DNA of 64,000 bases from the NCBI GenBank assembly GCA_003833075.1, contig RIAY01000003.1:186001-250000 (forward strand), written 5' to 3'. The position numbers and the translations under genes are program-made. Shown piece after piece: positions 2,978 through 21,421 of this stretch. The notes beneath the pieces are model-generated. The model was not told where the DNA came from and ran no database searches. It saw only the letters and a list, made by a program, of their open reading frames with translations. The stretch's first letter is position 1. Each line of letters starts with the position of its first letter. The DNA is from Muribaculaceae bacterium Isolate-036 (Harlan). Lineage in GTDB: Bacteria > Bacteroidota > Bacteroidia > Bacteroidales > Muribaculaceae.

Positions 2978-3041
2978 TAACTCGTGAAATTCCCTCGGAA
3001 ATCCATCTACACGTGAATGGACGTTAAATCCAGACACTCTA

Positions 3042-5624
3042 TTACAGAATTATTTTAAAAGCCTTGACTTTACCGGATTTGAATCTTGCCACTGCCAGTA
3101 CAACACCTTTCCCGGAAACGTTAAGGTTCACTATTGTTTTTCCGTCATTCTGTACAGAGTCTGATGAAATAAGATTCCCGTTGATGTCATATATGCCAAT
3201 GCATTCGACATCACCTTCTGCGATTACTACACCTTTTGCGGCATCATATCTGACACTCATTTCATTCCTTGACATAATTTCATCAACAGAAGAAGAGGAC
3301 TTTCGGAAATAAATGGGGTCAACATTCTTGATTTCTGCAAAACCGTTAGGTGTCATGGCATACAGTTTTAAACCATACAACGTGTAAGAGTCGAATGTAT
3401 CTGTATTCAGACTGCCGCGAATTTTTCCAGTCTCATTAATATTCTCCAATATAAGAAGCGGAGCAAATGTCACTGTTGTCAATATATCGGAAGGATTATT
3501 CTGGTCAAACACCTGAGCGGAAATTCCATAGCCGAAATATACACTCTTGTTTTCAATTGTCGCTGCAAACGAAAGATTATCCTCTGTTGAAACGCTGTAC
3601 ACGTTTGATGTATTGCCGCTTCCGACAGTCTCCCCGGTAAGGATGCCGTTTTCCAATATGAAATCGCTGACTTGGAAAGCATTGCCCCCTCCAACCAGCA
3701 TTCTTACTGATGAACTCCAGTCAAGCCTCTCATCGGTATCCGCATCAATAAATCCAAGCTTATATGACATTACGCGAGTCGGGGCGGTCTGTCCCGGAAG
3801 AATACGGAATATTGTTGTCACGTCTTCTGTCAAGCTGCCGTTTGCAGGAAGAACCACAGTGATTGTTTCCCCTTCCATTGCTGCAGCATCGGCATTATAC
3901 AGCACAGGTCGGATCCGTTTTGACAAATCACGTGCGGATGAATTGCCAAGCGACACCCGTAATTTCGCGGCATTCCCATAATACAGTTTGCTTATGAATT
4001 CTGCATTATCAACTTTTATAGGGTTGCTGATACTCTCGATGACAGAATAAATTGTACCGTTCTTTTTAATATAAAATGAATTCTTTTCGGAAGACGAGCA
4101 TAATACCGGCAGCCAGTCTGCATCGGAATTGCCCGATGCCTTAGTGACTAAGGATACTTCGTATTCGCCATCCGGCATGTCATCGGGAAGAGAGAATTTT
4201 CCCGGTGAGCCGATGCCGCTATAACTGATCATATAACCGCCGCTTGCAGCTTGCTCAAGCACAGGCGCGGCGAAAGTCTGCGATACAATAGTTATTGACT
4301 TGGCGTAAGATGAGTCGTAGTTTTTAATATTTACTCCGAAATTTACAGAAAGAGGTCTGATGTCGGTGTTTGCCCATATTCCGGTTCTTCCGTTGTAATC
4401 AAGACTCATGGACACATCCTTGCCCGCAAGCGATACTGACAGGCTGCCCAGCTGCGTCAGTCTCGGAGTATAGGAATAAGATGCCCCGGGCTGAATACCG
4501 ATAACTATGTCCTGGGCGTAGTTGAAGCCGTCGCTTCCGGTGCCGCCGCCAATGCCGACAGAGCCGGGATCAAGGGCAGCGAGAAGGAAATAGCCGTCAG
4601 ACATACCGCCCCATCCCCAGTTAAAATGGAAATAGCCATCACCGGCATAACCGTCGCAAACGAACTCATGACCCACAGAGGAGGAAACACCTCCATAAAG
4701 AACCGGCCTGCCAGCCGCCATCTCGGCATAAAGCATCCCCTCCCATTCGGCAGCGCTGTAATAGTCGCGTTCACAAAATTCTATGTCGGGGTTGTACGAG
4801 AAGTTGTTGACAAGCGCCTGCGCCGCGAAGCGCGAAAGCGTGCCGGATCCACCCATGGAGTAGTTCATCTTAGTGGAATAGCCACACGCTTTCATCAATG
4901 CCGCTACAGCCTTAGCCTGGGTGTCGTCATAGCCTCCCGACTTATAGATGTCAAGCATGTTATCCCAATCGAATGCAGTCCTGAAGTTCATCGAAGATTC
5001 CCCCTGAGCACCAGAGGGGAGGGTAATAGACCCGCTACCCGTGCCCCGTTCGGGATAGTTCCAATACTTCATGACCTGCGCCATCGCCGTGGCGACACAG
5101 CCTGTAGGATAGTTCCGGCTGTCCTTCGACGGCACCAAGAGGTTGTAAGGCGCGTCCTGATTCCAACGCGTGGACATCAAGGGGGCTACAATCTTGCGAT
5201 CATCCCTTCCAGACACAGAAGAGACGGCATATGCCGGTAACCCTGCCAACGAGGCATACTCAATCTGACGGGAGTATTCGCCAAGCCAATACTCGAGCTG
5301 AGGAGGAAGTAACTTACTGTCAAAGCTGCCGCTCTCGGAATAGCCCAACAACGGAGCCGCGCAATCATCGGCAGACACAACGAGGTATCCACCGTCACTA
5401 CGGTCTGCAAAAATGTATGCAGACGGATCCCCGTTCAATGTCCTAAGAGTGTGGACAACATCCATCCTGTCCAATCTGCCGAAAACCTTTTTCGGTCCGT
5501 TAGCTGATGAGAGCCTGGACAACGCCTCACCGGGAGTCAATGGCGACGCCATTGCTATAGCCGGAATAATTGCCATGACAGCTATAAATGCTGTCATTTT
5601 GAGTTTCTGTAGAATCATATGCAT
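3042..5624 (-). CDS. C10-family cysteine protease (streptopain-like), T9SS cargo, left locus
   Basis: 860 residues. A signal peptide (about 1-26) precedes a Spi-type propeptide, then the C10 peptidase domain. The catalytic Cys is about residue 176 in YPTGCVATAMAQVMKYW and the His about residue 319 in VGHEFVCDGY, followed by the FNWGWGG loop. Two or more beta domains follow, and a C-terminal segment ends ...GIYDINGNLI...KVKAFKIIL, resembling the type IX secretion type A sorting domain. Expected role: secreted or surface-anchored endoprotease producing peptides. It is the last gene of a minus-strand operon (susC, susD, lipoprotein, protease). About 400 N-terminal residues are nearly identical to the protease at 18854-21421, while the C-terminal part diverges strongly. 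Confidence 0.9.
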   Translation of the reverse strand: MHMILQKLKMTAFIAVMAIIPAIAMASPLTPGEALSRLSSANGPKKVFGRLDRMDVVHTLRTLNGDPSAYIFADRSDGGYLVVSADDCAAPLLGYSESGSFDSKLLPPQLEYWLGEYSRQIEYASLAGLPAYAVSSVSGRDDRKIVAPLMSTRWNQDAPYNLLVPSKDSRNYPTGCVATAMAQVMKYWNYPERGTGSGSITLPSGAQGESSMNFRTAFDWDNMLDIYKSGGYDDTQAKAVAALMKACGYSTKMNYSMGGSGTLSRFAAQALVNNFSYNPDIEFCERDYYSAAEWEGMLYAEMAAGRPVLYGGVSSSVGHEFVCDGYAGDGYFHFNWGWGGMSDGYFLLAALDPGSVGIGGGTGSDGFNYAQDIVIGIQPGASYSYTPRLTQLGSLSVSLAGKDVSMSLDYNGRTGIWANTDIRPLSVNFGVNIKNYDSSYAKSITIVSQTFAAPVLEQAASGGYMISYSGIGSPGKFSLPDDMPDGEYEVSLVTKASGNSDADWLPVLCSSSEKNSFYIKKNGTIYSVIESISNPIKVDNAEFISKLYYGNAAKLRVSLGNSSARDLSKRIRPVLYNADAAAMEGETITVVLPANGSLTEDVTTIFRILPGQTAPTRVMSYKLGFIDADTDERLDWSSSVRMLVGGGNAFQVSDFILENGILTGETVGSGNTSNVYSVSTEDNLSFAATIENKSVYFGYGISAQVFDQNNPSDILTTVTFAPLLILENINETGKIRGSLNTDTFDSYTLYGLKLYAMTPNGFAEIKNVDPIYFRKSSSSVDEIMSRNEMSVRYDAAKGVVIAEGDVECIGIYDINGNLISSDSVQNDGKTIVNLNVSGKGVVLAVARFKSGKVKAFKIIL

Positions 5625-5644
5625 ATTAGTTAATGTATATAATC

Positions 5645-5679
5645 GAGGCGTGTCAAAATTTATGGATTTGACACGCCTC
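5645..5679 (-). promoter_or_regulatory. Intercistronic stem-loop between lipoprotein and protease genes (left locus)
   Basis: Perfect 13-bp arms GAGGCGTGTCAAA / TTTGACACGCCTC with a 9-nt loop. In the direction of transcription (minus) no T-run follows, so it is more likely an mRNA-processing or stabilising element than a full terminator. The mirrored operon has a hairpin of unrelated sequence at the same position. Confidence 0.6.
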
Positions 5680-5719
5680 TTTTATGATAGACTTTTGTTT
5701 CTAATAGGAGCGTGATAAA

Positions 5720-6643
5720 TCAACGTGCAAAGCTGAAATCACTGATTGCTCCAAATCCACCTAACTGAGTGGAGAAGTCGGCAGAAGCAGCATAGAAAAG
5801 AATCATTGAGCCTTCGGGGAAAGAAATAGTCCTGCCGTCGTCACTCAGTATACCGGGAACCTCAGCTTGAGCAGTTGAATAGCCATTTAATGCCCATATG
5901 CGGAGATCATCTGCATATGTACATTTGCCTATATCTTGTGGCATAAGCAAATATAGCATAGGCGCACCAGTTTCTGGATCAACTTCAAAGGCAGCTTGCA
6001 TAGAGGATCCGTCTCCTACAAATATTGGTTCACAAGCGGATGTGAGTCCCGTTACGTTAAGTAGAACTCCATAATAGGGAGAACTCTTCGCGACCCCTTT
6101 TACACTGATATTGAACATACGTGCAGTACCATTCATATCAAAACAATTGACCTTATAGTTACCTTGGATACGTTCATAAGGATCACTATCATTGTCTTCA
6201 AGAGTAACCAATGTAGAATTTTGTGTTCCTACTTTAGCTCCTTCTGCAGAAACGATTGTCACTGTAAAAGTACGATCATAATTTATATTGAAATCATCAA
6301 CTGTACTAAATTCAAGCGAAGCCTCGCCCTGATCGGGAGATATTGTAAGAGTTGAAGAGACAAGAATAAAGTTACCACTCCATTCTCCGTTGTGTTCTTC
6401 AAATGGTTGTGCGGGATTATTTCCTGTGCCCTCGACTTTGACAGTAACCTTCACGTCGCCGTTAGCCTTACCATCAACCTTTATAGGAACAAAGAACTGG
6501 CCTTCCGATTCTTTGACGGTTATCTGGCTGTCTGCCATATCTACCGAGACTCCGGCTTCTGTGTTGAAACTCTTGTTCTCTTCAGAACAGGAGGTTACCA
6601 ACAGCGCGCCCAAAGAGAAAGCGAATATCTTTAGATATTTCAT
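5720..6643 (-). CDS. Calx-beta-like surface lipoprotein (left locus)
   Basis: 307 residues. Lipoprotein signal with lipobox VTSC (Cys19), followed by acidic SEENK, compatible with surface export in Bacteroidetes. Residues about 35-150 read like a Calx-beta/DUF-type beta sandwich (DDFNINYDRTFTVTIVSAEG ending TLVTLEDND). The C-terminal half is a beta-rich domain I do not recognise. It is the third gene of the operon after susD, and its counterpart at 17829-18746 has the same architecture. A surface ligand-binding partner of the SusCD transporter is likely by position; the ligand is unknown. Confidence 0.75.
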   Translation of the reverse strand: MKYLKIFAFSLGALLVTSCSEENKSFNTEAGVSVDMADSQITVKESEGQFFVPIKVDGKANGDVKVTVKVEGTGNNPAQPFEEHNGEWSGNFILVSSTLTISPDQGEASLEFSTVDDFNINYDRTFTVTIVSAEGAKVGTQNSTLVTLEDNDSDPYERIQGNYKVNCFDMNGTARMFNISVKGVAKSSPYYGVLLNVTGLTSACEPIFVGDGSSMQAAFEVDPETGAPMLYLLMPQDIGKCTYADDLRIWALNGYSTAQAEVPGILSDDGRTISFPEGSMILFYAASADFSTQLGGFGAISDFSFAR

Positions 6644-6676
6644 AAAATCTGTTGTTTTCAGTTAAACTTGGGTTAA

Positions 6677-8230
6677 TTAATATCCGGGGTTCTGAACCAT
6701 CTGCGGATTTGTTTCCATCTCATGGGAGGGGATGGGAAGAACATACTTGGAATCAGTAGCACTGTAAGTGACCTGAATACTTGCGGGCACAAGAGCGCTC
6801 GTAACACCGGTATACTCCAGTCCATAGTTATCACTGCGGGAAAACCCGAGTTTCCAACGACGAAGGTCACTAATACGGAATCCTTCGCCTATAAGCTCTT
6901 TATTACGCTCATTGCGTATTTGATCAATCAAGGTCTCTCCTGTATAATTCTCCTGAATGAAGTCATATAAACGAGCTTCCCGTATATCATTGAGAGCAGC
7001 GTTTGCTTTATCCACATTGCCCGAATTGGCGGCAGCCTCAGCCAATATAAGATACATTTCACTAAGACGGAAAGGCTTACCTAAATTCTTAAGATCATTA
7101 CTAGTTCCTGAATTGAATTCTGGATTCCCTGGATATTTCACAAAAACCGGAGCTAAGACTGCAAGACCATCTACACGGAGTCTACGAGGTACGAAGAAAC
7201 ATTCAAAGCGGACGTCGTTATAACGTTCATCTTCATTACTTCCATATAGATCAAGCGCATTGGCTGTCGGAATATAATCGGCAGTCTGCCCATCTTTCTG
7301 GTTGAAAGTCTCGCCTATTGAAGCCACTCCTCCACGTTGACTATTATTAGCATATGGAAGGAATATAAGCTCTGACCCTGAATCGCTGCTCCACATATTA
7401 AAGTATTGATCTATGCTACAAAGTTCGAAAGGTCCTGCTATTACCTTTTCAGCTTTGTCAATAGCTGTTTCCCAATCACCTTTCAACAATGCAATGCGAG
7501 CCTGAAGAGCTACTATCGCATATGTACTCAGATAAGGCGCATTGGGTCTCATATTTGAGTCTGCCCCCTCAATACCGCACTTTTCAAAATTCTCAATGTC
7601 AGCATAGGCTGCTGCCAAGTCATTCTCAATCTGAGAGAATGTCTCTGAAAGCGTGTTCCTACCCGGATATGCATCATAGTTGCTGGTTGGGGAATATTTC
7701 GTTACGATTGGAACTCCTGTATTGGCAGATGTGGGATCAATTACGGTATAAGAGTTGCAAAAACGGTCAGTAATATACCAATAGCAATATGCTCTGGTGA
7801 AATATGCTTCTCCTCGATAACGCTTAAGCTCCACCTTGTCTTGCTCAGAATATTTTTCATCTGCAATCATAGGCGCAATTTTCTCAAGGAAATAATTACA
7901 GTTTGCTATAGTTCCGTAAGGTCCTGCCCAAAGCCCGGCAAGGTTCTGTGTATCATTTGACAGGATAGCTGTCTTATTGCTCCAGAAGCCACCACGGTTT
8001 CCGTTGGTAGTCATTCCTACGAAGTTATCAGATTGCAGATCCTGACCTGTTATGTAACCTCCATTGCTAATGTCGCGTAAGTTAACATAAAGACCATTGC
8101 GGAAAGCAAGCGCGTCTCTGACATTAAGGATCGCGTCTTTGTCACCGAGCGTCCCTACGGGTTCCTCATTCATGCTACATGAAGCGAACAGCAATGCAGG
8201 AAGTGCAAAAATTAAAAATATCTTTTTCAT
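6677..8230 (-). CDS. SusD/RagB family lipoprotein (left locus)
   Basis: 517 residues. Lipobox LFASC (Cys18), then the SusD alpha-helical TPR scaffold: RYRGEAYFTRAYCYWYITDRF in the N-terminal half, FRLSEMYLILAEAAANSG and IRNERNKELIGEGFRISDLRRW near the C-terminus, ending in ...NPQMVQNPGY. These are hallmark SusD/RagB motifs. It caps the SusC barrel on the cell surface and binds substrate. It lies 20 bp after susC in the same operon. With a protease and no glycoside hydrolase in the operon, an oligopeptide (RagB-like) substrate is more likely than a glycan; that is inference. Confidence 0.95.
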   Translation of the reverse strand: MKKIFLIFALPALLFASCSMNEEPVGTLGDKDAILNVRDALAFRNGLYVNLRDISNGGYITGQDLQSDNFVGMTTNGNRGGFWSNKTAILSNDTQNLAGLWAGPYGTIANCNYFLEKIAPMIADEKYSEQDKVELKRYRGEAYFTRAYCYWYITDRFCNSYTVIDPTSANTGVPIVTKYSPTSNYDAYPGRNTLSETFSQIENDLAAAYADIENFEKCGIEGADSNMRPNAPYLSTYAIVALQARIALLKGDWETAIDKAEKVIAGPFELCSIDQYFNMWSSDSGSELIFLPYANNSQRGGVASIGETFNQKDGQTADYIPTANALDLYGSNEDERYNDVRFECFFVPRRLRVDGLAVLAPVFVKYPGNPEFNSGTSNDLKNLGKPFRLSEMYLILAEAAANSGNVDKANAALNDIREARLYDFIQENYTGETLIDQIRNERNKELIGEGFRISDLRRWKLGFSRSDNYGLEYTGVTSALVPASIQVTYSATDSKYVLPIPSHEMETNPQMVQNPGY

Positions 8231-8250
8231 ATTCTATACGGTCAAAATAA

Positions 8251-11200
8251 TTAGAATGAAACCTCAACCCCGAACTCATATTGACGGGTATTGGGATATG
8301 CAAATTTGTACATGTTGGTCTGAGGCTCAGGATCATAGCCGGTAAAGTCGGTCACTGTCCAAAGGTTACGACCAGTGAAGTGGAGCACAAGATTTGACAG
8401 ACGCATCACATTTACGATATTCTTAGGAAATGAATAAGAAAGCGTAAGGTTCTTTAAACGAAGGAACGATGCATCTTCGATATAACGAGAGTCAAACTGC
8501 GGAGTCTCATTAGCATTCGGATACATGGTGACATCACCAGGTTTAGTCCACACATTGAGCATGCATACATCCTGGTTTTGTTGATAACCTTGGGATGCGT
8601 TCTGAAGGAAGAAAGCGTCATTATTTGTCATATATTTCTTGGCTGCCCAATTGAAGTCTACGCTAAGGCTGATGCCTTTCCAGCTTAAACTTGTACCAAA
8701 GCCTCCAGTCCATGGAGCAAACTGACTTTTACCTGTCATTACAGAGTTTTCCTCTTCGTTATAAATTTTTGTTATATTGTCGTTTTTATCAAGCCACATC
8801 TGTTTTCCATCACGTGGATCCACTCCCACATATCGCACAGAATAGAATTCACCTGCTGAATGACCCACCTCATAGCGCAATCCGGTATTAGGGATGGTGT
8901 AAGAATCACGTCCCGAGAAAAGTTCTGTAATCTTGTTCTTGTTGTAGTTGAAGTTGCAGCGCACACCCCAATACCAATCCTGTGTTTTGATAATGTCTGC
9001 TTGAACATTGACATCTACACCGGTATTTGTCATAGAACCGATATTGCCATAGCTGGCATCAAAGCCGGTCGTGTAGCTCCATGGAATCTGCATGAGCATA
9101 TCTTTGGTTGTTTTCTTGTAAAAATCAATCTCAGCTGTAATGATTCCAAGCGTTTTAAATCGCAATGCGGCATCAAATGCATAGACTGTCTCCCATGTAA
9201 GATCCGGGTTACTGGGATTACCGAGTCCAGTAGAAGTTGTATTGGATCCCGTTCCATATCCTGGATTATAAGTACCGACAGTGCCGAAATATGCATAATT
9301 AGGAATTGAAGAGTTACCGGTTGAACCATAACTCACGCGAGCCTGCAGTTCGTTAAGCCATTCAACTGATTGAAGAAATTTTTCCTGTTTCACATTCCAC
9401 ATTCCTCCGACTGAGAAGAAATTTGACCAACGATGCCCCGGAGCAAATCTTGAACTGCCATCTCTACGATAAGTAGCCTCGAAGAAATAACGATTGTCAA
9501 AGTTATAGCTACCCTTCAAGAAAATAGAGTTAAAAATCTCGCGCTGCACATTCTGATTGAGCATGGAATTGTCAACATTAGGTCCCTGTTGAAGAAGCAT
9601 CAATCGTCTGTCTGTAAAACCCTTGCTTGTAACAGTGAACATATCGTCTTTATTTATCATGGATTCCTCTCCAAGAAGAACAGTAACATCATGAAGATCA
9701 TTTATCAGGATATTGTATTCAGCAGTATTTGTGAAAGTCCATGCATAATAACGTTGGAACGACTGTGTGCTCTGTCCGGAATTAAGAGCACCGATATTCG
9801 GATCATCTCCAAGTATATCTCCCATAGGGGTTAGTGTTGTCTCATATGGTAGCCATTTGTTGTCAAGTCTGTAATCGTATGCATTAACTGCTTGCTGAGC
9901 CCTGATCGTTAATCCTTTCACAGGAGTGATTTGTTCATATAGATTGAGATTTGCAGTAATGTTTGTGCGGTTGGACTTATTAGTCTCATAAATCCACTCG
10001 GGCGAATTGTAACCGAAATAATGCATCGTCATAGCACGATCACCGTAATGAATCTGCCCATCATCGTCTATTGTGTAATAGTATGGAGAATCATATGGGA
10101 AAGCCATGCGTGCGAATACCATAGGATTGGCTACATAAATGCCTGAATTTGTAACCTGACTATTGGTTCCATACTTAGTATAACCGAGGTTCGCCTGCAA
10201 ACCTACTCGTAGCCAGTCGTTCACACGGCTATTGAGCGAAGTGCGAAGTGTTTCACGGCGCATACCGGACATGGTAATGATACCGTCTGCATCATAATGA
10301 TTAAGAGAAAGATAATATGAAAGATTCTCACCGCCACCACTTACAGCCGCATCAACAGAATATGTTAGGGCGTTATCATTAAACATCTCTTTGCGCCAGT
10401 CGGTTGAGATTCCATATTTATCAACAATATCGCGTACTTCCTGACTCACAGGTGAACCAATCTTGTCACGGAACTCAATATATTGCTGAGAATTCATCAT
10501 AGTCACATTGTCTTCCACCATCTGGCTCCAGCCTACATTCGCACGAAGTGTTACGTTCGCTTTTTCACCGAAAGCACCCCTTTTTGAGGTAATCACAATA
10601 ACACCGTTTGCAGCACGAGAACCATAGATTGCTACAGAAGCGGCATCCTTAAGCACTGTAACACTTTTGATGTCATTGGGATTGAGTGTAGTAAACACGC
10701 TTGATGACACTGGTGCTCCGTCAAGAATGAACAGCGGAGTATTACCTGCATTAAGGGAGTTCACACCGCGAATACGGATCGCGTTGTCTGTTGAAGACGG
10801 GTCACCTGAATTAGAAAAGATGTTTAAACCAGGCACCTGACCCTGGAGAGCGTCAACGAACGTTGCAGTGGGTATATTTTCAAGTTGCTTCTCGCCGACT
10901 ACGGCAACGGAACCTACTACAGAACCGAGTTTCTTGGCGGAACCGTAACCGAGCACCACAAGTTCATCAAGGTTTGAATCGGAACTTGCAAGTTTTACCA
11001 CCATATTATCGCGAATAGCCACAGTCTGCGTAGCATAACCGACATAGCTTACTTTTGCCTGCTTCACGTTTGCGGGCACTTTGAGTGTAAACTTGCCGTC
11101 TGCGTCAGTGGCGACTCCCTGGCCGCCGCCGACAGGCATGATCGTGGCACCGATCAGAGGCTCGTTGTTCGAACCGTCGACAACCGTGCCGTGATACGTG

Positions 11201-11268
11201 CGAGTCTGTGCCGAAAGACTCCAGCTGCACGCCATCAGCGTCATCAAGATTAAAAACAATTTTCTCAT
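8251..11268 (-). CDS. SusC/RagA TonB-dependent outer-membrane transporter (left locus)
   Basis: 1005 residues. Signal peptide 1-20; a carboxypeptidase-regulatory-like beta domain about 24-95; the TonB-box/plug region about 97-231 (DELVVLGYGS, TPLFILDGAPV, YGSRAANGVIVITSKRG); then a 22-strand barrel ending ...YEFGVEVSF. It imports substrate captured by SusD, powered by TonB. The ATG lies inside a 59-bp inverted repeat shared with the other susC (13215), and only 50 bp separate it from the stop of the upstream recombinase gene. In the present orientation it seems to lack its own promoter. High identity to the second SusC in the plug, lower in the extracellular loops. Confidence 0.95.
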   Translation of the reverse strand: MRKLFLILMTLMACSWSLSAQTRTYHGTVVDGSNNEPLIGATIMPVGGGQGVATDADGKFTLKVPANVKQAKVSYVGYATQTVAIRDNMVVKLASSDSNLDELVVLGYGSAKKLGSVVGSVAVVGEKQLENIPTATFVDALQGQVPGLNIFSNSGDPSSTDNAIRIRGVNSLNAGNTPLFILDGAPVSSSVFTTLNPNDIKSVTVLKDAASVAIYGSRAANGVIVITSKRGAFGEKANVTLRANVGWSQMVEDNVTMMNSQQYIEFRDKIGSPVSQEVRDIVDKYGISTDWRKEMFNDNALTYSVDAAVSGGGENLSYYLSLNHYDADGIITMSGMRRETLRTSLNSRVNDWLRVGLQANLGYTKYGTNSQVTNSGIYVANPMVFARMAFPYDSPYYYTIDDDGQIHYGDRAMTMHYFGYNSPEWIYETNKSNRTNITANLNLYEQITPVKGLTIRAQQAVNAYDYRLDNKWLPYETTLTPMGDILGDDPNIGALNSGQSTQSFQRYYAWTFTNTAEYNILINDLHDVTVLLGEESMINKDDMFTVTSKGFTDRRLMLLQQGPNVDNSMLNQNVQREIFNSIFLKGSYNFDNRYFFEATYRRDGSSRFAPGHRWSNFFSVGGMWNVKQEKFLQSVEWLNELQARVSYGSTGNSSIPNYAYFGTVGTYNPGYGTGSNTTSTGLGNPSNPDLTWETVYAFDAALRFKTLGIITAEIDFYKKTTKDMLMQIPWSYTTGFDASYGNIGSMTNTGVDVNVQADIIKTQDWYWGVRCNFNYNKNKITELFSGRDSYTIPNTGLRYEVGHSAGEFYSVRYVGVDPRDGKQMWLDKNDNITKIYNEEENSVMTGKSQFAPWTGGFGTSLSWKGISLSVDFNWAAKKYMTNNDAFFLQNASQGYQQNQDVCMLNVWTKPGDVTMYPNANETPQFDSRYIEDASFLRLKNLTLSYSFPKNIVNVMRLSNLVLHFTGRNLWTVTDFTGYDPEPQTNMYKFAYPNTRQYEFGVEVSF

Positions 11269-11292
11269 ACTTAGTAATTTAGAGATAAGTTA
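11234..11292. repeat. Left 59-bp inverted repeat (candidate recombination site)
   Basis: This is the reverse complement of 13191-13249 with two mismatches. 37 bp are perfect (11234-11270 with 13213-13249), then 22 bp with two changes. It covers the first 35 bases of the left susC coding sequence and 24 bases upstream. Similarity falls off abruptly on both sides, including at third codon positions. Confidence 0.9.
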
Positions 11293-11318
11293 GTAGGAGA
11301 AAATTCTTAATCCTTGGA

Positions 11319-12716: not shown

Positions 12717-12859
12717 GTTTCAAAATTAAATTAAAGAAAAGAATTTTTTGACAAATTTGAAATAATTGCGAACGATAGATATATTTATGCTATTCTTGTG
12801 CCGCTTTTAGTATATTTTTACAGAAAATGACTTCTAATGTGTTAAAAAGAATAATAAAA

Positions 12860-12891
12860 TTTGGAAATATGGATTGATAATATTAAATTTG
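12860..12891 (+). promoter_or_regulatory. Promoter driving the right susC operon
   Basis: TTTG at 12860-12863, a 20-nt spacer, and TAAATTTG at 12884-12891: a full match to the Bacteroidetes consensus. Transcription would start near 12896, giving a long 5' leader of about 315 nt before the ATG at 13215. The leader is AT-rich with no convincing gene. It lies inside the candidate invertible segment, and no equivalent promoter is visible next to the left susC. Confidence 0.7.
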
Positions 12892-13190
12892 TGCAAATTT
12901 AAGTTTGTTATAGAAATTTTAACAAATCAAACGAAAGTTGAAAAGCTTTCGAAACTGACAGAATTACAAAGGCGAATCTCAGGGAAAGTTTCTTTGAATC
13001 CGCAAGCGCTAACCAGAGAAGACAACTATCATTCAAAACTCAGCAAATCATCGGGAGTCTCCTTTTTCCTGGCAAGGAAGCCGGATGCTCTTAATTGTTA
13101 AACCAAATACTTAATATACAATAAGAAACAGATACCGCTATCATCTCTGAAACCAAAACACATTTGTGAATTTTTAACAACAAACAATAA

Positions 13191-13249
13191 TAACTTATCT
13201 CTAAATTATTACGTATGAGAAAATTGTTTTTAATCTTGATGACGCTGAT
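13191..13249. repeat. Right 59-bp inverted repeat (candidate recombination site)
   Basis: Partner of 11234-11292. It includes TAACTTATCTCTAAATTA upstream of the start codon, then the first 35 bases of the right susC coding sequence, identical to the left copy. Confidence 0.9.
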
Positions 13250-16238
13250 AGTCAGCGGTCTTGCCGTTTCGGCACAGACGCGCACCTATCACGGCACGGT
13301 TGTCGACGCGACAACGTCCGAGCCTCTGATCGGCGCCACTGTCCTGCCCATCGGCGGCGGCCAGGGCGTAGCAACCGACGTGGACGGCAAGTTCACACTC
13401 AATGTTCCTGCAAGTGTTAAGCAGGTTAAAGTGAGCTACGTGGGCTATGCAGCCAAGACAGTGACACTGCAAAACGATATGGTAGTAAAGCTGTCAAGTT
13501 CTGATTCTGATCTTGATGAGCTCGTGGTTCTCGGTTACGGTTCTGCCAAGAAACTTGGTTCGGTAGTAGGTTCCGTTGCCGTAGTCGGCGAGAAGCAGCT
13601 TGAAAATATACCCACCGCAACGTTCGTTGACGCTCTCCAGGGTCAGGTTGCCGGTCTTAGCATCCTCTCCGGAACGGGAGATCCCGGTGCTCCGAGCAAT
13701 GCGATCCGTATCCGTGGTGTGAACTCACTTAACGCGGGCAACACTCCGCTGTTCATCCTTGATGGCGCGCCGGTGTCGTCAACAGTCTTCACTACTCTCA
13801 ACCCGAACGACATTCAGAATATAACCGTGTTGAAAGATGCAGCTTCTGTTGCCGTTTACGGTTCGCGAGCAGCGAACGGTGTTATCGTGATCACTTCCAA
13901 GCGCGGTGCCATGGGCGAGCGTCCCAAGGTGACGGTGCGTGCCAATTACGGATGGTCACAGATGGTTGAAGACAATGTGGAGATGATGGATTCCAAACAG
14001 TATATCGAATTCCGTGACCGTATCGGATCTCCTGTCAGCGATAATATCCGCGATCTCGTAAATAAGTATGGTATCTCTACCAACTGGCGTGACGAACTGT
14101 TTAACTCCAGTGCCCCGACTTATTCTATTGATGCATCTGTTCGCGGAGGTAGCGAGAATTTGAACTATTATGTTTCGCTCAACCACTTCAACGAGGATGG
14201 TATCTCGAAGTATTCCAACATGCGTCGCGAGACATTGCGCGCAGCCCTCAACGTGAAGGTTAACAACTGGTTCCGTGTAGGTCTTCAGTCAAACCTCGGT
14301 TATACCAAATATCGTTCAACATCGGCGGCTGCTACACCAAACGGTATTGACCTCAATAATCCGATGGTGCTTGCCCGTTTAGCTCTTCCGTATGATTCTC
14401 CATATTATTATCATTTCGATGAAAACGGTAATATAATTTATGGTGACAAGGCACAAGCACTTCATTATTCGGTCAATAATCCCTATACTCCCGAATTCAA
14501 TAAATCTATATGGAACAGGTATCGGTCAAGAGTAACGGCTAACGTTAATATGTTTGAACAGATTACTCCTATTGATGGACTGATAATCCGTGCACAGCAG
14601 GCGGTTGACGGTTATGACGCGCGTATCAATTGGGAGACCTATCCCTATGAATCATTCGTGACTCCTATGGGAGACCTTATTGGTAATCCTACAAAGCCTG
14701 TTGGCTTTATGAATACGGGTGCAAACCAACAGACTTTTTCAAGGTATTATTCATTTACATATACGAACACAGCTGAGTATAATTTCAATATCAACGATCA
14801 GCACAATTTCACGGTTCTTGCCGGTCAGGAATCAATAATTTCCAGAGAGAACGGTTTCGGTGCTATTGTTCGTGGGTATACTGACAAGCGCACAATGCTT
14901 CTAACACAGGGTGTAACGGTTACTCCTTCAGATTTAACACAGACAATAGTGAACGAAACATTCAATTCACTTTTCTTCAAGCTGAACTATGACTTCAGCG
15001 ACAGATATTTCTTCGAGGCTACCTACCGTCGTGACGGCAGTTCCAAGTTCGCTCCCGGTCACCGTTGGTCAAACTTCTTCTCTGTCGGTGGCATGTGGAA
15101 CGCAAAAAAAGAAGCTTTCCTACAGCCGGTAGAATGGCTTAACGAACTTCAGGCACGCGTAAGCTACGGAACTACAGGTAACTCTTCGATTAATAATTAT
15201 CTTTATTTCGGTTCTGTCAAACCATATGATGAAGGTTATGGAAAAGAACAGGTATCCTGGGGTCTTTGGAATCCTTCGAATCCTGACTTGACTTGGGAGA
15301 CTGTGAAGTCATTTGACGCAGGTCTTCATTTCAGGGTGTTCAACATCCTTTCCGGAGAAGTTGATTTCTACAAGAAGACTACTACAGACATGCTCATGAG
15401 CATACCATGGAGTTATACCACAGGATTCAGCTCAGGTGCCGGCAATATCGGATCAATGACAAATACCGGTGTGGATGTTACACTCAATGCAGACATCATC
15501 CGCACGAAAGATTGGTATTGGGGTGTTCGTGCCAACTTCAACTACAATAAGAATGAGATCACCGAGCTCTTCAATGGCAGGGATTTTTATACTTTGGCAT
15601 CCACAGGTCTTAGATATCAGGTAGGTCATTCAGCCGGTGAATACTACGCAGTGCGTTATCTCGGAGTAGATCCGCGTGACGGCAAGCAGATGTGGCTTGA
15701 CAAGAACGACAACGTGACCAAGGTTTACAACGAGGAGCAAAATTCAGTGATGACAGGCAAGAGCCAGTATGCACCATGGAATGGTGGCTTCGGCACTAAT
15801 CTCCGTTGGAAAGGACTTGCCCTCCAGCTTGATTTCGTATGGGCGGCAAAGAAATATATGATGAACAATGATGCATTTTTCTTAAACAATGCCGCTCAGG
15901 GACTTCAGGTGAACCAGTCTACAGATATGCTTGATGTTTGGTCCAAGCCCGGTGACGTTACTATGCATCCCGGTCCTTCAGAGACGGTTCAGTTTGACGA
16001 TCGTTTAATCGAGGATGCATCATTTATGCGTCTTAAGAACTTGACATTGACATATTCACTACCTAAGAAATGGATGGAGGCAGCCAAACTTGAGAATGTG
16101 ACTCTTCACTTCACTGGCAGAAACCTCTGGACCGTGACAAACTATTCGGGTTACGATCCGGAACCTCAGACAAATATGTATCAGTTCGCTTATCCCAACA
16201 CCCGTCAGTATGAACTTGGCGTTGAGGTGACATTCTAA
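13215..16238 (+). CDS. SusC/RagA TonB-dependent outer-membrane transporter (right locus)
   Basis: 1007 residues with the same architecture as the left copy: signal peptide 1-20, carboxypeptidase-regulatory-like domain, plug (DELVVLGYGS to SRAANGVIVITSKRG), and barrel ending ...YELGVEVTF. The plug domain is almost identical to the left paralogue. Differences cluster in the barrel (about residues 370-620), where surface loops that select substrate would lie. It is first in a plus-strand operon: susC, susD (21 bp), lipoprotein, C10 protease. The 500-bp upstream region holds a full promoter, so this is probably the expressed copy in the sequenced orientation. Confidence 0.95.
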   Translation: MRKLFLILMTLIVSGLAVSAQTRTYHGTVVDATTSEPLIGATVLPIGGGQGVATDVDGKFTLNVPASVKQVKVSYVGYAAKTVTLQNDMVVKLSSSDSDLDELVVLGYGSAKKLGSVVGSVAVVGEKQLENIPTATFVDALQGQVAGLSILSGTGDPGAPSNAIRIRGVNSLNAGNTPLFILDGAPVSSTVFTTLNPNDIQNITVLKDAASVAVYGSRAANGVIVITSKRGAMGERPKVTVRANYGWSQMVEDNVEMMDSKQYIEFRDRIGSPVSDNIRDLVNKYGISTNWRDELFNSSAPTYSIDASVRGGSENLNYYVSLNHFNEDGISKYSNMRRETLRAALNVKVNNWFRVGLQSNLGYTKYRSTSAAATPNGIDLNNPMVLARLALPYDSPYYYHFDENGNIIYGDKAQALHYSVNNPYTPEFNKSIWNRYRSRVTANVNMFEQITPIDGLIIRAQQAVDGYDARINWETYPYESFVTPMGDLIGNPTKPVGFMNTGANQQTFSRYYSFTYTNTAEYNFNINDQHNFTVLAGQESIISRENGFGAIVRGYTDKRTMLLTQGVTVTPSDLTQTIVNETFNSLFFKLNYDFSDRYFFEATYRRDGSSKFAPGHRWSNFFSVGGMWNAKKEAFLQPVEWLNELQARVSYGTTGNSSINNYLYFGSVKPYDEGYGKEQVSWGLWNPSNPDLTWETVKSFDAGLHFRVFNILSGEVDFYKKTTTDMLMSIPWSYTTGFSSGAGNIGSMTNTGVDVTLNADIIRTKDWYWGVRANFNYNKNEITELFNGRDFYTLASTGLRYQVGHSAGEYYAVRYLGVDPRDGKQMWLDKNDNVTKVYNEEQNSVMTGKSQYAPWNGGFGTNLRWKGLALQLDFVWAAKKYMMNNDAFFLNNAAQGLQVNQSTDMLDVWSKPGDVTMHPGPSETVQFDDRLIEDASFMRLKNLTLTYSLPKKWMEAAKLENVTLHFTGRNLWTVTNYSGYDPEPQTNMYQFAYPNTRQYELGVEVTF

Positions 16239-16258
16239 ACACTGCAGAACAATTTATT

Positions 16259-17797
16259 ATGAAAAAAGTATTTTTAAGCATATTGATTGCGGGCGCCCTG
16301 TTTACCTCGTGCGACATGAACGAGTTGCCGGCCGGTACTCTCAGTGACGAGACTGCAATCCAGACAGAGAAGGATGCCATGAAATTCAGAAACGGCATCT
16401 ACAATAGCATACGTTCGCTGACGGGAGGTGGTTACATTGCCTATCCTGATATTCAGGCAGACCTATTTATCGGTACGGTAGTCAATGGTAACCGTATCGG
16501 TCCGATCAGTGCAGGTAACATTAATTCAAGCACGCAGGAATTCGCAAGTTTCTGGTCGGGTCCATATTCTTCGATTGCCGATGTTAACTATTTCCTACCC
16601 AAGGTAGAATCGCTTATGGCTGCGGCTGGTATATCGGATGCAGACCGGATTTCACTTCAGCGTTATCGCGGAGAAGCTCATTGGGCCCGTGCGTTCTTCT
16701 ATTATTTCCTTGCCGATCATTATTGTAATTCCTATAATGTTGGTGATCCAAACGCCGCTAACACGGGAGTTCCTCTGATAACGGAATATAAGCCAACCGG
16801 AGATTACACTCACTATAAAGGTCGTTCAACTCTTGCCGAGACTTTTGCACTTGTGGAAAGAGATCTCGAGCAGGCGTATAGTGATCTTGAGGCTTATGAG
16901 AAATCAGGTGTTGACGGTGCTACCGCAAACCTTGCATCTAATGCGTCATATCTGAGCACTTATACTGTTCTTGCGCTTCAGGCACGTGTCGCATTGCTCA
17001 AGGGTGACTACGATACAGCGATTGCCAAGGCAGAGAAAGTTATCAGCGGACCTTACGAATTAAGCGATTACGATGAGTATTTAAACATGTGGGTTACAGA
17101 TGCGGGTAAGGAACTGATCTTCGTTCCTTATGGGGATTCCAAGCAAGGTCCTTCTGTGCCGAGCACGGGTAGCGCATGGCTTTCGAATTTCGAAGGCGTT
17201 ATAGATTATGTACCGTCATCAGATGTGCTTGGTCTATATAGCGAAGAAGATGTGCGTAACTATTCATTCTTTGATTATTTTGAGTTGAAGAACGAAGGTC
17301 AGGGCACTATGGCTATGTCGTTCATTAAATTCCCCGGAAACCCTGTGTTCAACACCGGCTCAGACAATGCGTTTAAGAATAAGCCAAAACCTTTCCGTCT
17401 GAGTGAGATGTATCTGATTGTGGCTGAGGCTGCAGCGGCAAAAGGTAATGCAACCGACAAAGCGAATGCTGCGCTTAATGCCATCCGCAAGGCGCGTATA
17501 GAGGGATATAATGACCAAAGTTTGAGTGGCACGACACTTATAAATGAGATTCGTATGGAGAGAGCCAAGGAGTTGATCGGAGAAGGATTCCGTATCAGTG
17601 ACCTCCGCCGTTGGGGACTTGGTTTCACCCGTCCTGTAAATTATTCCGGATATCTCAGCGATCTTCCCTCTGTTCTCCTCCCTTCAAGCGTAGAGACTGT
17701 TTATCAGGCAGGTGACTACAGATATGTGCTGCCGATTCCTGTAGGTGAAATGGATAGCAACCCGCAGCTCAAAGGACATCAGAACCCGGGATATTAA
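16259..17797 (+). CDS. SusD/RagB family lipoprotein (right locus)
   Basis: 512 residues. Lipobox LFTSC (Cys18), then SusD motifs RYRGEAHWARAFFYYFLADHY, FRLSEMYLIVAEAAAAKG, IRMERAKELIGEGFRISDLRRWG and the terminal NPGY. It pairs with the upstream SusC to form the surface lid of the transporter. It is clearly homologous to the SusD at 6677-8230, but the ligand-facing middle region differs (a FEGVIDYVPSSDVLGLYSEED segment here), consistent with a different cargo. Confidence 0.95.
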   Translation: MKKVFLSILIAGALFTSCDMNELPAGTLSDETAIQTEKDAMKFRNGIYNSIRSLTGGGYIAYPDIQADLFIGTVVNGNRIGPISAGNINSSTQEFASFWSGPYSSIADVNYFLPKVESLMAAAGISDADRISLQRYRGEAHWARAFFYYFLADHYCNSYNVGDPNAANTGVPLITEYKPTGDYTHYKGRSTLAETFALVERDLEQAYSDLEAYEKSGVDGATANLASNASYLSTYTVLALQARVALLKGDYDTAIAKAEKVISGPYELSDYDEYLNMWVTDAGKELIFVPYGDSKQGPSVPSTGSAWLSNFEGVIDYVPSSDVLGLYSEEDVRNYSFFDYFELKNEGQGTMAMSFIKFPGNPVFNTGSDNAFKNKPKPFRLSEMYLIVAEAAAAKGNATDKANAALNAIRKARIEGYNDQSLSGTTLINEIRMERAKELIGEGFRISDLRRWGLGFTRPVNYSGYLSDLPSVLLPSSVETVYQAGDYRYVLPIPVGEMDSNPQLKGHQNPGY

Positions 17798-17828
17798 TCT
17801 ATTGTGTAACTACAAATCATATAAATAT

Positions 17829-18746
17829 ATGAAATATACTAAAATATTCGCTCTCTTTCTTGGCGCGTTGTCGTTGACGGCGTGTTCCGACAAGGAGGAA
17901 TTCAATACCGCATCGGGCGTGACGGTAGAGATGGGACAGAGCGAGATCACAGCTGTTGAGACTCAGGACATGCTAAATATCCCTGTTATAGTAAAGGGGG
18001 ATGCGAATGGTCCGATTACTGTCCGTCTTAAAATTGAAGCTACGGGTGATGTGCCGGTTAAACCTTTTGAAGATATTGACGGAAATTGGAGCGGTAATTA
18101 TATAGTGACTTCCGAGACTCTGAATATACCTGCCGGTGAAAACCAGGTGTCAATGGAAGTTAGACTCGTTGATGATTTTGACAAGACCGGTGACTGGACA
18201 TTCAACGTAAGTATTGTTTCCTGTGATGGTGCTACAGTGGGGAGTCAGTCTACTACGGTTGTTACTGTCCTTGATAATGAAGCTTTCCCTCCATACGACC
18301 TTATTCAGGGCAAATGGAAATTCAATTTCAAGAATGGAAAAGGAGCAGCAGCTTCATATAATGTAACAGTCAGCGGATATCCGGAGGGGACTACAGAATA
18401 TGCTAAGGGGTATCTTGAGCTTGCAGGCCTTCTGAATAACCCAACTGTCTTGTCTCTATATCTTACAGAAGATGAGGCTAATGATAAGGTTTATGTTTCA
18501 ATGGTTTTGCCGGAACCTATAATATGGTATGATGATACCAATTATGTTTGGGTTATCGGTAAAGATAATGCATCCGGAAAATGGACTTTGAGCAAAAAGA
18601 TCGTTACGGGAGAATTTGACCGTGATAAACAAACTATAACGTTTGCACCTGAGGACATGATCGGTTTCTATGTGGCTACGCCTGATTTATCATCGGCTAT
18701 GGGATTCTATGAGACGGCATCGGATATAACATTCACAAGAAAATAG
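17829..18746 (+). CDS. Calx-beta-like surface lipoprotein (right locus)
   Basis: 305 residues from the ATG at 17829. The reading frame is open further upstream, but this ATG gives a proper lipoprotein signal (MKYTKIFALFLGALSLTAC, Cys19) and avoids overlap with susD. A Calx-beta-like domain follows (DDFDKTGDWTFNVSIVSCDG to VTVLDNEAFPPYDLIQGKW), then an unrecognised beta-rich C-terminal domain. Same place and plan as the lipoprotein at 5720-6643, but with much lower sequence identity than the proteases. Probable SusCD accessory binding protein. Confidence 0.75.
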   Translation: MKYTKIFALFLGALSLTACSDKEEFNTASGVTVEMGQSEITAVETQDMLNIPVIVKGDANGPITVRLKIEATGDVPVKPFEDIDGNWSGNYIVTSETLNIPAGENQVSMEVRLVDDFDKTGDWTFNVSIVSCDGATVGSQSTTVVTVLDNEAFPPYDLIQGKWKFNFKNGKGAAASYNVTVSGYPEGTTEYAKGYLELAGLLNNPTVLSLYLTEDEANDKVYVSMVLPEPIIWYDDTNYVWVIGKDNASGKWTLSKKIVTGEFDRDKQTITFAPEDMIGFYVATPDLSSAMGFYETASDITFTRK

Positions 18747-18791
18747 TAGTTTGTCCCGGAACATTAAGTTCTCTCAGGGAATAATATCATG

Positions 18792-18823
18792 TGGCGGGGA
18801 GTGCGTATGCGCGTTCCCCGCCA
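18792..18823 (+). promoter_or_regulatory. Intercistronic stem-loop between lipoprotein and protease genes (right locus)
   Basis: A 14-bp stem, allowing G-U pairs, runs from TGGCGGGGA to TCCCCGCCA with a TATG loop. No T-run follows. Positional equivalent of 5645-5679 in the mirrored operon. Confidence 0.6.
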
Positions 18824-18853
18824 TTACATAATAATTTGATATAAATAATAACC

Positions 18854-21421
18854 ATGAAAAGGATATATCTTATTTTAACAGCATTGTCCTTGTCCTTGTC
18901 CGGTTTGAATGCCGCAACATTGACTCCCGGTGAGGCATTGTCCAGGCTTTCTTCCGCCAAAGGACCGAAAAAGGTTTCCGGCAGACTGGACAGGATGGAT
19001 GTTGTCCACACCCTCAGGACATTGAACGGGAATCCGTCTGCATACATTTTTGCAGACCGCAATGCGGGTGGCTACCTCGTTGTGTCTGCCGATGATTGCG
19101 CGGCTCCGTTGCTGGGCTATTCCGAGAGCGGCAGCTTTGACAGTGAGTCGCTTCCTCCTCAGTTCGAGTATTGGCTTGGAGAGTACTCCCGACAGATTGA
19201 GTATGCCTCGTTGGCAGGGTTGCCGGCGTATGACGCCTCTCCTATGTCGGGTGTGGATGGTCGCAAGATTGTAGCGCCCTTGATATCCACGCGTTGGAAT
19301 CAGGACGCGCCTTACAACCTCTTGGTGCCGTCGAAGGATAGCCGGAACTATCCTACAGGCTGTGTCGCCACGGCAATGGCGCAGGTTATGAAATATTGGA
19401 ACTATCCTGAACGCGGCACGGGCAGCGGGTCTATTACCCTCCCCTCCGGTGCTCAGGGAGAATCATCGATGAACTTCAGGACTGCATTCGATTGGGATAA
19501 CATGCTTGACATCTATAAGTCGGGAGGCTATGACGACACCCAGGCTAAGGCTGTAGCGACATTGATGAAAGCGTGTGGCTATTCCACTAAGATGAACTAC
19601 TCCATGGGTGGATCGGGCACGCTTTCCCGCTTCGCGGCGCAGGCACTTGTCAGCAACTTCTCGTACAATCCCGACATAGAATGCTGCGAACGTGACTATT
19701 ACAGCACCACCGAATGGGAGGGGATACTTTATGCCGAGATGGCGGCAGGCAGGCCGGTCCTTTATGGAGGCGTTTCCTCCTCTGTGGGTCATGAGTTTGT
19801 CTGCGACGGTTATGCCGGTGACGGCTATTTCCATTTTAACTGGGGATGGGGCGGTATGTCTGACGGCTATTTCCTTCTCGCTGCCCTTGATCCCGGCTCT
19901 GTCGGCATTGGCGGCGGCACCGGAAGCGACGGCTTCAATTACGCCCAGGATATAATTATAGGTATTCAGCCCGGAGCTTCTTATTCCTACACTCCAAGGA
20001 TGACCCAGTTAGGGAATCTTTCCGCCACCGTTTCCGGCAAGTCCGTCACCATGACACTCGACTACGGCGGCAGGCAGGGTTATTGGGTGAACACAGACAT
20101 CAGGGAGATAGATGTTAATTTCGGTGTTACCATAGAGCCGACATTAGCCGGGACGCAGGGAGGGGGTGCCCTCAAGCTCCAGTCGGGAGCTATTGCCGCC
20201 CCTTCGCTCACACCGACAGACGGTGGCTACCAGGTTCGTTATGCGGGCTATGAAGGCAAGGTGTCTTTCAATATTCCAGATGGTCTTGCCGACGGCAGCT
20301 ATCGCGTTACGGTCAGTTCCCAGCAGAATGGCAATCCCGAAGCCCTATGGCTTCCAGTGCTCAAGGAGCAGGGATGTGTAAATTCCTTCTATATTACAAA
20401 ATCAGCGGGCAGGTATGAGGTTTCCACTTCATTGCCGTCATTGGTTGCAGTCACCGGTGCCGAGGTTGTAGGCAAGCTCTATTACGGCTGCGCCTCCCGC
20501 CTGAACGTGACTGTGGGGAACACCTCGCAGGAAGCGACAATCGCCACTCTCAAGCCATGTCTATACAGCGGCGATGTGTGTGCCATGGAGGGTGATGCCT
20601 TCGAGGTTTCCCTCTCCGGAGGAGAATCAAGGCAGGTCGATCTGACCACTGTCTTCCGCATATTGCCGGGTGTAGCCGCTCCTTTGCGATTGACATCATA
20701 TAAGCTGCGTTTCGTAGATGCTGAGACAGGGGAGCCTCAAGACTGGAACGCGTCTGTGCGCATGTATGTTAACGCGGCGGTTTCATTGGGTGTAAACGAG
20801 TTCGTTGCTGAGAATGCAACACTGACCGGCGACAAGGAGGGAGACACGACTGTCCCTAACGTTTACGAAGTGAGTGCCGGTTCGTCACTCATGCTGAAGG
20901 CAGTGGTAGAGAACCTTGGTGCATATTTCGGTTACGGCATATCGGCACAGGTGTCACCTGCATCTGACACAGGTAACGTGCTCGCCACGGTGAAGTTCGG
21001 TCCGGATCTGTTCCTGGCTGAGAAGTCTGAGACGGCGACGATCACATCGACGCTCTCCACTGACGGTATCGGGGGATATGACCTCTACCGGGTTCGGCTA
21101 TATGCCATGGCTCCCAACGGTTTCGCTGAAATAAAGGGAGCGCCGGAGATCTATTTCCGTCTTTCTTCGTCAGGAGTGTCGGAAGTTGACGCCCTTGGTG
21201 TAGGGGAGGTAAGTTTCGACCGTGGCAGCCGGAAGGTGTTCGCTACCGGTGATGTATCCGGTCTGGACCTCTACGACATAAGTGGCTCGATGATCGCTGC
21301 GGAACCGGTGGCAGACGGAGAACGCTTGTCGGCACGCGTTGACGATGCCATGAGTGGCATCGTGATAGCAGTAGCGCGTTACCGCTCCGGAGCTGTCAAG
21401 ACATTGAAGATAGTTTTGTAG
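18854..21421 (+). CDS. C10-family cysteine protease (streptopain-like), T9SS cargo, right locus
   Basis: 855 residues. Signal peptide 1-20 (MKRIYLILTALSLSLSGLNA), Spi-type propeptide, and C10 domain with Cys about 170 (YPTGCVATAM) and His about 313 (VGHEFVCDGY) plus FNWGWGG. Beta domains follow, and a C-terminal segment (LDLYDISGSMI...GAVKTLKIVL) resembles a type IX sorting domain. It differs from the left paralogue in signal peptide and in the C-terminal half, while the mature protease is nearly identical. A 107-bp gap with a hairpin separates it from the lipoprotein gene. Secreted protein-degrading partner of the transporter operon by inference. Confidence 0.9.
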   Translation: MKRIYLILTALSLSLSGLNAATLTPGEALSRLSSAKGPKKVSGRLDRMDVVHTLRTLNGNPSAYIFADRNAGGYLVVSADDCAAPLLGYSESGSFDSESLPPQFEYWLGEYSRQIEYASLAGLPAYDASPMSGVDGRKIVAPLISTRWNQDAPYNLLVPSKDSRNYPTGCVATAMAQVMKYWNYPERGTGSGSITLPSGAQGESSMNFRTAFDWDNMLDIYKSGGYDDTQAKAVATLMKACGYSTKMNYSMGGSGTLSRFAAQALVSNFSYNPDIECCERDYYSTTEWEGILYAEMAAGRPVLYGGVSSSVGHEFVCDGYAGDGYFHFNWGWGGMSDGYFLLAALDPGSVGIGGGTGSDGFNYAQDIIIGIQPGASYSYTPRMTQLGNLSATVSGKSVTMTLDYGGRQGYWVNTDIREIDVNFGVTIEPTLAGTQGGGALKLQSGAIAAPSLTPTDGGYQVRYAGYEGKVSFNIPDGLADGSYRVTVSSQQNGNPEALWLPVLKEQGCVNSFYITKSAGRYEVSTSLPSLVAVTGAEVVGKLYYGCASRLNVTVGNTSQEATIATLKPCLYSGDVCAMEGDAFEVSLSGGESRQVDLTTVFRILPGVAAPLRLTSYKLRFVDAETGEPQDWNASVRMYVNAAVSLGVNEFVAENATLTGDKEGDTTVPNVYEVSAGSSLMLKAVVENLGAYFGYGISAQVSPASDTGNVLATVKFGPDLFLAEKSETATITSTLSTDGIGGYDLYRVRLYAMAPNGFAEIKGAPEIYFRLSSSGVSEVDALGVGEVSFDRGSRKVFATGDVSGLDLYDISGSMIAAEPVADGERLSARVDDAMSGIVIAVARYRSGAVKTLKIVL

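Follow-up and report, generated by a model that had tools for sequence, protein, structure and literature searches.

A candidate multi-site inversion system joining one promoter to one of three SusCD-protease operons in a Muribaculaceae bacterium

Introduction

What is the role of a recombinase gene that lies between two complete nutrient-uptake operons arranged as mirror images of one another? The question is raised by a locus of Muribaculaceae bacterium Isolate-036 (Harlan) (GenBank assembly GCA_003833075.1, contig RIAY01000003.1), in which the gene order is C10 protease, lipoprotein, SusD and SusC, then the recombinase, then SusC, SusD, lipoprotein and C10 protease. The locus lies in a window of 64,000 nucleotides, the whole stretch of DNA that was analysed (C23:186001-250000), within a single 270-kb contig of the 3.48-Mb genome. 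An earlier note, made from the letters of the window, had taken the arrangement for a two-state switch between the two operons. The present analysis points to a wider arrangement, a multi-site site-specific inversion system, or small susCD shufflon, in which a single promoter would be joined to any one of three operons for surface proteins. We give this reading a probability of about 0.65. An invertible promoter segment selecting complete SusCD-lipoprotein-C10 operons is the best-supported reading of the sequence because its sites are common to relatives, the recombinase co-occurs with them, a homologous segment apparently lies in opposite orientations in two species, and contigs end at the sites.

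Inversions linked to susC are already known in Bacteroides, as the earlier note had said. According to the available parts of the sources, Tsr0667 of B. fragilis (Nakayama-Imaohji 2009) brings about multiple inversions in susC/susD clusters, its described targets being three clusters and nine other regions (PMC4747536, PMC11852207), and nutrient-receptor shufflons are known in B. thetaiotaomicron (PMC12548429). SusCD orthologues are counted among invertible loci in the accessible text of a review (PMC12632263), and invertible regions near susC/susD are reported, in the portion available, to differ with gut inflammation (PMC10939037).

Results

Both susC genes that flank the recombinase begin within an arm of an inverted repeat. 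Site L (11234..11295, minus strand) spans the start codon of the left susC, and site R (13188..13249, plus strand) that of the right one. The arms measure 62 nt and are 95% complementary, where the earlier note had counted 59 bp, and they cover approximately 27 non-coding bases before the ATG as well as the first codons of both genes. The tract that L and R share exactly at the start codon is 37 bp long (2 bases before the ATG and 35 from its A on). Past the repeat, on the side of the promoter and the recombinase, the left and right sequences are unrelated, in keeping with the diverged flanks noted earlier. Chance repeats were ruled out as an explanation, since the repeat spans non-coding bases and recurs in relatives.

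A repeat search of the whole genome returned three places, as did a pattern search allowing up to three mismatches (reversed control, 0), and each of the three sites spans the susC start of an operon ending in a C10 protease. The third, site A (C23:184441-184529, minus strand), lies 1.5 kb to the left of the window, at the head of an operon whose susC (C23:181201-184509), susD (C23:179385-181181) and C10 protease (C23:176366-178810) genes are all on the minus strand. The third SusC is 37-38% identical to the left and right ones; its gene matches the right susC exactly over 114 bp, made up of 20 bases before the ATG and 94 of coding sequence from it on. Given this third susC-susD-C10 operon with the same site, identical to R over those 114 bp, the strictly two-operon reading was dropped as first choice, and the two-state switch of the earlier note is probably wrong: three operons and three sites make the locus shufflon-like rather than two-state. 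By count, there are the three or more sites serving alternative susC genes that a susC/susD shufflon would have, sites that would recombine with one another, and they are inverted around the promoter, with A and L on the minus strand, R on the plus strand and the promoter at R.

Promoters were sought as TTG-N18..23-TAnnTTTG, which we take to be the Bacteroidales promoter motif. Within 450 bp upstream of R there are two overlapping matches, and none lies in the corresponding stretches upstream of L or A; under a first-order Markov model, a match would turn up in 450 bp with a chance of 2-3%. The putative promoter of the right susC operon, the one now connected, is at 12861..12891 (plus strand; TTG-N20-TAAATTTG), and the statement in the earlier note that only the right operon has a full promoter holds when the third operon, which has no match either, is counted in. 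If transcription starts where the promoter match suggests, a leader of about 316 nt (12899..13214, plus strand) would precede the gene. It is predicted to be structured (fold z -2.3), and an Rfam scan of 11000-13500 gave no match. A GCTAAC-AGAGA stretch of this leader has a similar counterpart in the leader of the related genome G084. A putative promoter of the recombinase gene (12894..12925, minus strand; TTG-N21-TAAATTTG) adjoins that of susC, and the facing boxes form a near-palindrome (12883-12902; TTAAATTTG TG CAAATTTAA), so that the two promoters nearly overlap. Further matches comprise one on the minus strand (12754-12721), a few bases before the recombinase start codon, and two on the plus strand at some distance from the sites, in the stretch from A to L (window 854 and 1837). 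A scan of 11150-13300 for E. coli-type promoters returned 12 matches against 5.1 expected and was given no weight for this phylum.

The promoter, the leader and the recombinase gene thus lie in a 1,946-bp segment between the inverted sites over the left and right susC start codons, and an inversion between L and R would detach the promoter from the right operon and place it before the left one. Inversion between A and R would carry it over 14.7 kb to the third operon, outside the window. Performed in silico, the L x R inversion (1,946 bp) places the same promoter at L and the A x R inversion (14,705 bp) places it at A, each time at the same 354-nt distance. Start codon and reading frame would survive either exchange because the site contains them. 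As regards the idea of the earlier note that inverting the central segment would exchange the expressed set, L does gain the promoter in silico, and three operons rather than two appear to take part. We infer that the recombinase acts on these sites, that inversion takes place in this strain, that three states exist and what the substrates are. The A x R inversion would also flip an Rpn-family gene and an AAA_14/DUF4143 ATPase gene (window 1890-2882, C23:184688-186037) that lie between the third and left operons.

The recombinase gene (11319..12716, minus strand) encodes a protein that we call an atypical tyrosine recombinase because Pfam gives Arm-DNA-bind_5 as its only domain, with no PF00589 match, and the remaining similarity is to PHROG integrase families (E 8e-9). 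Aligned with typical integrases, it has K325, R411, H434 and Y443, a box-I Arg region that reads FQGLAP, and Tyr in place of the His of HxxR. An alignment of 72 sequences (the query and the 71 homologues found) showed Q267 in 72/72, K325 in 72/72, R411 in 71/72, H434 in 70/72 and Y443 in 71/72, which indicates that the missing box-I Arg is a conserved departure and not decay; one of the 71 homologues, P0072, is listed with PF00589. The AlphaFold2 model (mean pLDDT 58.5) was of too low a quality to be of help.

At E<=1e-30 the family is present in nine of 111 same-genus genomes, with a partial match in G061 and a copy cut by the contig end in G160, and in seven of the 397 genomes drawn from the taxonomic family, all seven belonging to the same genus. 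Outside the genus, six of 25 genomes with a match gave weaker ones (best E 1e-5), which seem to reflect general integrase similarity. A search of viral contigs gave 0 matches, and the profile found the recombinase in 0/8 further genomes reached through their loci (E 1e-10). A search of the contig collection with the recombinase returned none, though relatives of approximately 40% identity exist there, which is a limit of that search.

Sites and recombinase occur together in the genus. With up to two mismatches allowed (one hit in the reversed control), the site pattern was found at least once in 49 of the 111 genomes and at least twice in 12. At least two sites were present in 8/9 genomes with the recombinase vs 4/102 without it (Fisher p 1e-8, uncorrected for kinship), and at least three matches in five of the nine (G000, G084, G160, G027 and G022). 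In seven of eight places, counting the window, a site-bearing susC start follows the recombinase stop at a distance of 48-142 bp; G077 is the exception. The seven recombinase places in relatives comprise five with 1-3 susC genes on the contig and two whose contigs break off inside a susC start, after 27 or 45 bp. All susC starts at recombinase places read MRKLFLIL, save one MRKVFLIL in G084. A gene that resembles rpmE by eye stands beside the recombinase in G084, G052, G027:C139 and G077; the G084 copy falls within the segment that two inverted sites bound. In G022, two inverted sites approximately 515 bp apart on contig C136 (L089:6432-6947) enclose a promoter match and no recombinase; the recombinase of this genome is on another contig, which ends at a site. 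Site-bearing contigs found elsewhere are titled Muribaculaceae, Muribaculum sp., Porphyromonadaceae, Bacteroides sp. or Bacteroidales, and nearly all are metagenome-assembled genomes.

Promoters were surveyed at 22 sites of the eight genomes with recombinase and sites, plus five sites of G150 and G070. Sites on the recombinase side had the full motif within 450 bp upstream in 0/7 cases and the bare TAnnTTTG in 1/7 (G052, 42 nt upstream). At least TAnnTTTG was found at leader distance at R in G000, at R in G084 and at the minus-strand site of C136 in G022.

Signs that such segments may turn come from comparison between species. Contig G027:C40 (8104-21208) and contig 67 of CAMWMD (1-13200) hold the same two cassettes in a 13.1-kb segment, whose order is reversed relative to a common flank (G027 3552-6459, contig 12), with breaks at the sites. 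This homologous segment is therefore apparently in opposite orientations in the two species, the orientation in CAMWMD depending on a 54-bp overlap of contig ends in which three of the last five bases discriminate the cassettes. G027 has the recombinase between flank and site, and contig 12 has none there.

Contigs also tend to end at the sites. Of the 47 sites scanned in the contig collection, 12 are no more than 60 bp from the end of a contig, against an expectation of 0.37; for a distance of 100 bp the count is 14, against 0.61. Contigs stop at sites in G167 and G169, two genomes with at least two sites and no member of the recombinase family (G070, G167 and G169 are taken to be CAMWIF, CAMWMD and CAMWTL, on the agreement of contig numbers and site positions). 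In G167, one and the same base is the break point of three cassette starts that have only 49 or 14 bp in common, which repeats would explain less well if the assembler's word length is near 55, as we suppose. For 41 of the 71 recombinase homologues the longest contig exceeds the gene by at most 900 bp, and a susD control gave 6 such short contigs among the first 71 of 120 listed homologues (531 found). The nearest two homologues (99% and 91% identity) are listed with contigs of 1,982 bp, a length not far from the 1,946 bp that separate the start codons of the left and right susC.

Gene calls and family matches bore out the mirror symmetry. On the minus strand are the left C10 protease (3042..5624; PF13734 and PF01640), lipoprotein (5720..6643; Calx-beta-like, under the Pfam cut-off), SusD (6677..8230) and SusC (8251..11268). 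On the plus strand are the right SusC (13215..16238), SusD (16259..17797), lipoprotein (17829..18746; the open reading frame runs from 17745, and an ATG near 17829 is the likely start, judged from sequence) and C10 protease (18854..21421). Compared with TIGR04056 (SusC/RagA; cut-off 368), the left and right SusC score 759 and 755 bits; the third SusC was compared with Pfam. The left, right and third C10 proteases all have PF01640 and the I69 propeptide above cut-off.

Protein identity between the arms is 71% for SusC, 52% for SusD, 39% for the lipoprotein and 64% for the protease. The last value is a composite of columns 50-400, of which 326/350 are identical (93%), and the columns after 400, with 199/462 (43%), which accords with the earlier observation that the SusC barrels and SusD binding regions differ and the C10 core does not. 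The proportion of synonymous differences (pS) in the protease is 0.17-0.37 in codons 0-400 and 0.77-0.90 beyond; it is 0.77-0.87 for susD, 0.72-0.78 for the lipoprotein gene and, for susC, 0.52 over the first 200 codons and 0.76-0.90 beyond. Because the protease core is similar at synonymous sites as well, recent gene conversion or homogenisation across the arms is likely, and not constraint alone; the arms differ in SusD, the lipoprotein, most of SusC and the C-terminal part of the protease, while the core of the right protease has been homogenised with that of the left. The cores form a 1,186-bp inverted repeat (90%; window 4357-5542 and 18918-20103), which could itself support an inversion of 13-15 kb by homologous recombination.

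Three further features lie to the right of the operons: GTTTTC-type inverted repeats 3' of the right protease gene (window 21425-21569), an M6 peptidase gene beyond it (21634-23544), with a similar-looking gene bordering a site in CAMWMW (L124:1279-3189), and a gene for a Cas9-like protein (RuvC_III, HNH_4; 44393-48094).

Discussion

Several observations weigh against an active three-operon inversion system. Q267-G268 occupies the expected position of the box-I Arg in all 72 recombinases, which makes their activity uncertain. The genome's own 270-kb contig crosses all three sites in one orientation and is unbroken there. A and L stand in direct orientation at a distance of 12,759 bp, which carries a risk of deletion, and the upstream half of site A departs from that of L and R (TGATTTATC for TAACTTATC). 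Among relatives, G061 has a partial recombinase and no site, and the recombinase of G077 faces the end of a susD gene, with the site 5 kb off, at a contig end. Two sites of G160 have a promoter match, G150 has TAnnTTTG at 3/3 sites, and G052, G027 and G077 show no leader-distance promoter in the upstream DNA examined; one promoter per genome was dropped as a general rule after these five genomes. Some contig breaks, with 55 bp in common in G169 and 77 bp in G022, fit exact repeats of assembler word length, and contig ends alone were dropped as proof for that reason. Finally, the start-codon pattern is matched just once in 37 of the 111 genus genomes, so part of the conservation of start-codon DNA has another cause, and it was no longer taken as proof of switching; in these single-match genomes a susC gene was confirmed by its open reading frame in G030 only, and similar start sequences were seen in others.

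The claim of the earlier note that the operons are mutually exclusive is also unproven. The left susC starts 50 bp past the recombinase stop, and no terminator-like site was found between them, with one weak same-strand match inside the recombinase gene. The recombinase-side operon may receive low-level read-through from the recombinase promoter, and because it could be read in this way, mutual exclusion is not established.

The alternative that survives best keeps the switch and confines it to L and R, the third operon carrying a decayed or formerly used site and being silent or otherwise regulated. The divergent upstream half of site A would fit it, as would the DUF4096 (IS4/5-type) transposase fragment that occupies the place of the lipoprotein gene in the third operon. 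We consider it unlikely nonetheless: the exact match between A and R (114 bp) is longer than that between L and R (37 bp), though the proteins of A and R are far more diverged, and five of the nine recombinase genomes have at least three matches to the site pattern.

It is improbable, in our estimate, that a recombinase encoded elsewhere acts on the sites and the linked gene does something else, a proposal whose switch itself overlaps with the three-operon inversion system. The genome has 22 PF00589 matches, master invertases that act at a distance are known in B. fragilis from the available text of PMC4747536, and G167, G169, G070 and G150 have several sites and no family member at E<=1e-30, to be set against the linked gene ending 48-142 bp before a site in seven of eight places.

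We give as little credence to a static mirror-image duplication, in which the recombinase is a relic and the sites are alike through paralogy and gene conversion of 5' ends: the homogenised protease core, the 37 single-match genomes and the missing box-I Arg are in its favour, and against it the similarity ends at the upstream edge of the site, the recombinase is intact with its deviant motif kept in 72/72 sequences and co-occurs with several sites, orientation is apparently opposite across species and contigs end at sites.

The three-operon inversion system may be one of several that use the same site. Two genomes with at least two sites and without the recombinase family have another enzyme between mirror-image susC genes, a PF00589 tyrosine recombinase in G150 and a serine recombinase in G070. 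In G150 (C91, L088:6852-9348) an IS110-type transposase accompanies the tyrosine recombinase. At L109, a serine recombinase (6052-6681, plus strand; PHROG DNA invertase, E 1e-46) is in the tyrosine recombinase's place, between susC starts at 5442 (minus) and 6869 (plus), and the repeats reach further upstream there. We tentatively suggest, as a conjecture somewhat short of even odds, that the site came first and outlives its enzymes: the susC start motif would be a docking point for protease-importer operons, and at least three recombinases (the tyrosine family without box-I Arg, the PF00589-type tyrosine and the serine enzymes) would have taken over switching across species, giving a switch, combinatorial and exchangeable, that would govern proteolysis and peptide uptake.

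As to what is switched, solved structures were compared with the right and third SusC. The closest to the right SusC is RagA (E 1e-177; PDB 6sli, Porphyromonas gingivalis), and the third SusC is closest to the SusC homologue 8aa4 (E 3e-94) and then to RagA. The likeness to RagAB has a limit in the right SusD, to which other SusD-like structures (3mcx, E 8e-33) are nearer than RagB is (E 4e-17). Streptopain and interpain A are among the matches of the left protease. Because the right SusC is closest to RagA and is paired with a C10 protease, protein digestion and peptide import are the likely function, and the products are probably RagAB-like peptide importers and C10 (streptopain-like) proteases. 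RagAB is implicated in protein uptake in the available text of PMC11817032, and a survey of S24-7 genomes gives, in the part accessible, streptopain homologues in 26/30 and M6 peptidases in 20/30 (PMC4936053). Cells would then probably vary their set of protease plus peptide importer, and with protein digestion and peptide uptake also their surface antigens and phage receptors.

Compared by description, and within the available parts of the sources, the locus resembles the Tsr0667 shufflon in having one recombinase and alternative susC/susD sets joined to different promoters, and the B. thetaiotaomicron shufflons in the phase-variable choice of nutrient receptor. It differs from Tsr0667, described at three clusters and nine regions, in its linked recombinase family, found at E<=1e-30 in this genus alone among the 397 genomes drawn, and its local start-codon sites, as far as their use can be inferred, and from the Tsr0667 susC/susD clusters in that every set forms an operon that includes a C10 protease. 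The proteases share the C10 domain with the streptopain-like proteases of gut Bacteroidales (PMC4936053, PMC2873492) and also have the I69 propeptide; the accessible portions of those two papers describe no inversion control, whereas in this genome each of three operons with a common recombination site closes with one copy. A literature search for PhaseFinder with Muribaculaceae found none, and the titles and starts of abstracts among the papers listed yielded no description of this locus, which is not proof of its absence from print. Inversion switches of susCD are thus already known, and the locus would be a variant with complete protease operons in Muribaculaceae.

Conclusions

The family Muribaculaceae is abundant in the mouse gut. 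If the three-operon inversion system operates as proposed, cells of one clone could differ in the surface proteins that they make, and whole protein-degrading and peptide-importing systems would be phase-variable in Muribaculaceae, the susCD switches cited above being those of Bacteroides. Whether dietary protein, antibodies or phages select particular states would then be testable. A recombinase family that lacks a catalytic arginine and yet stays linked to its sites would be a useful case for enzyme mechanism, and the evolution of such switches would be illustrated by the apparent swap of recombinase types at one position.

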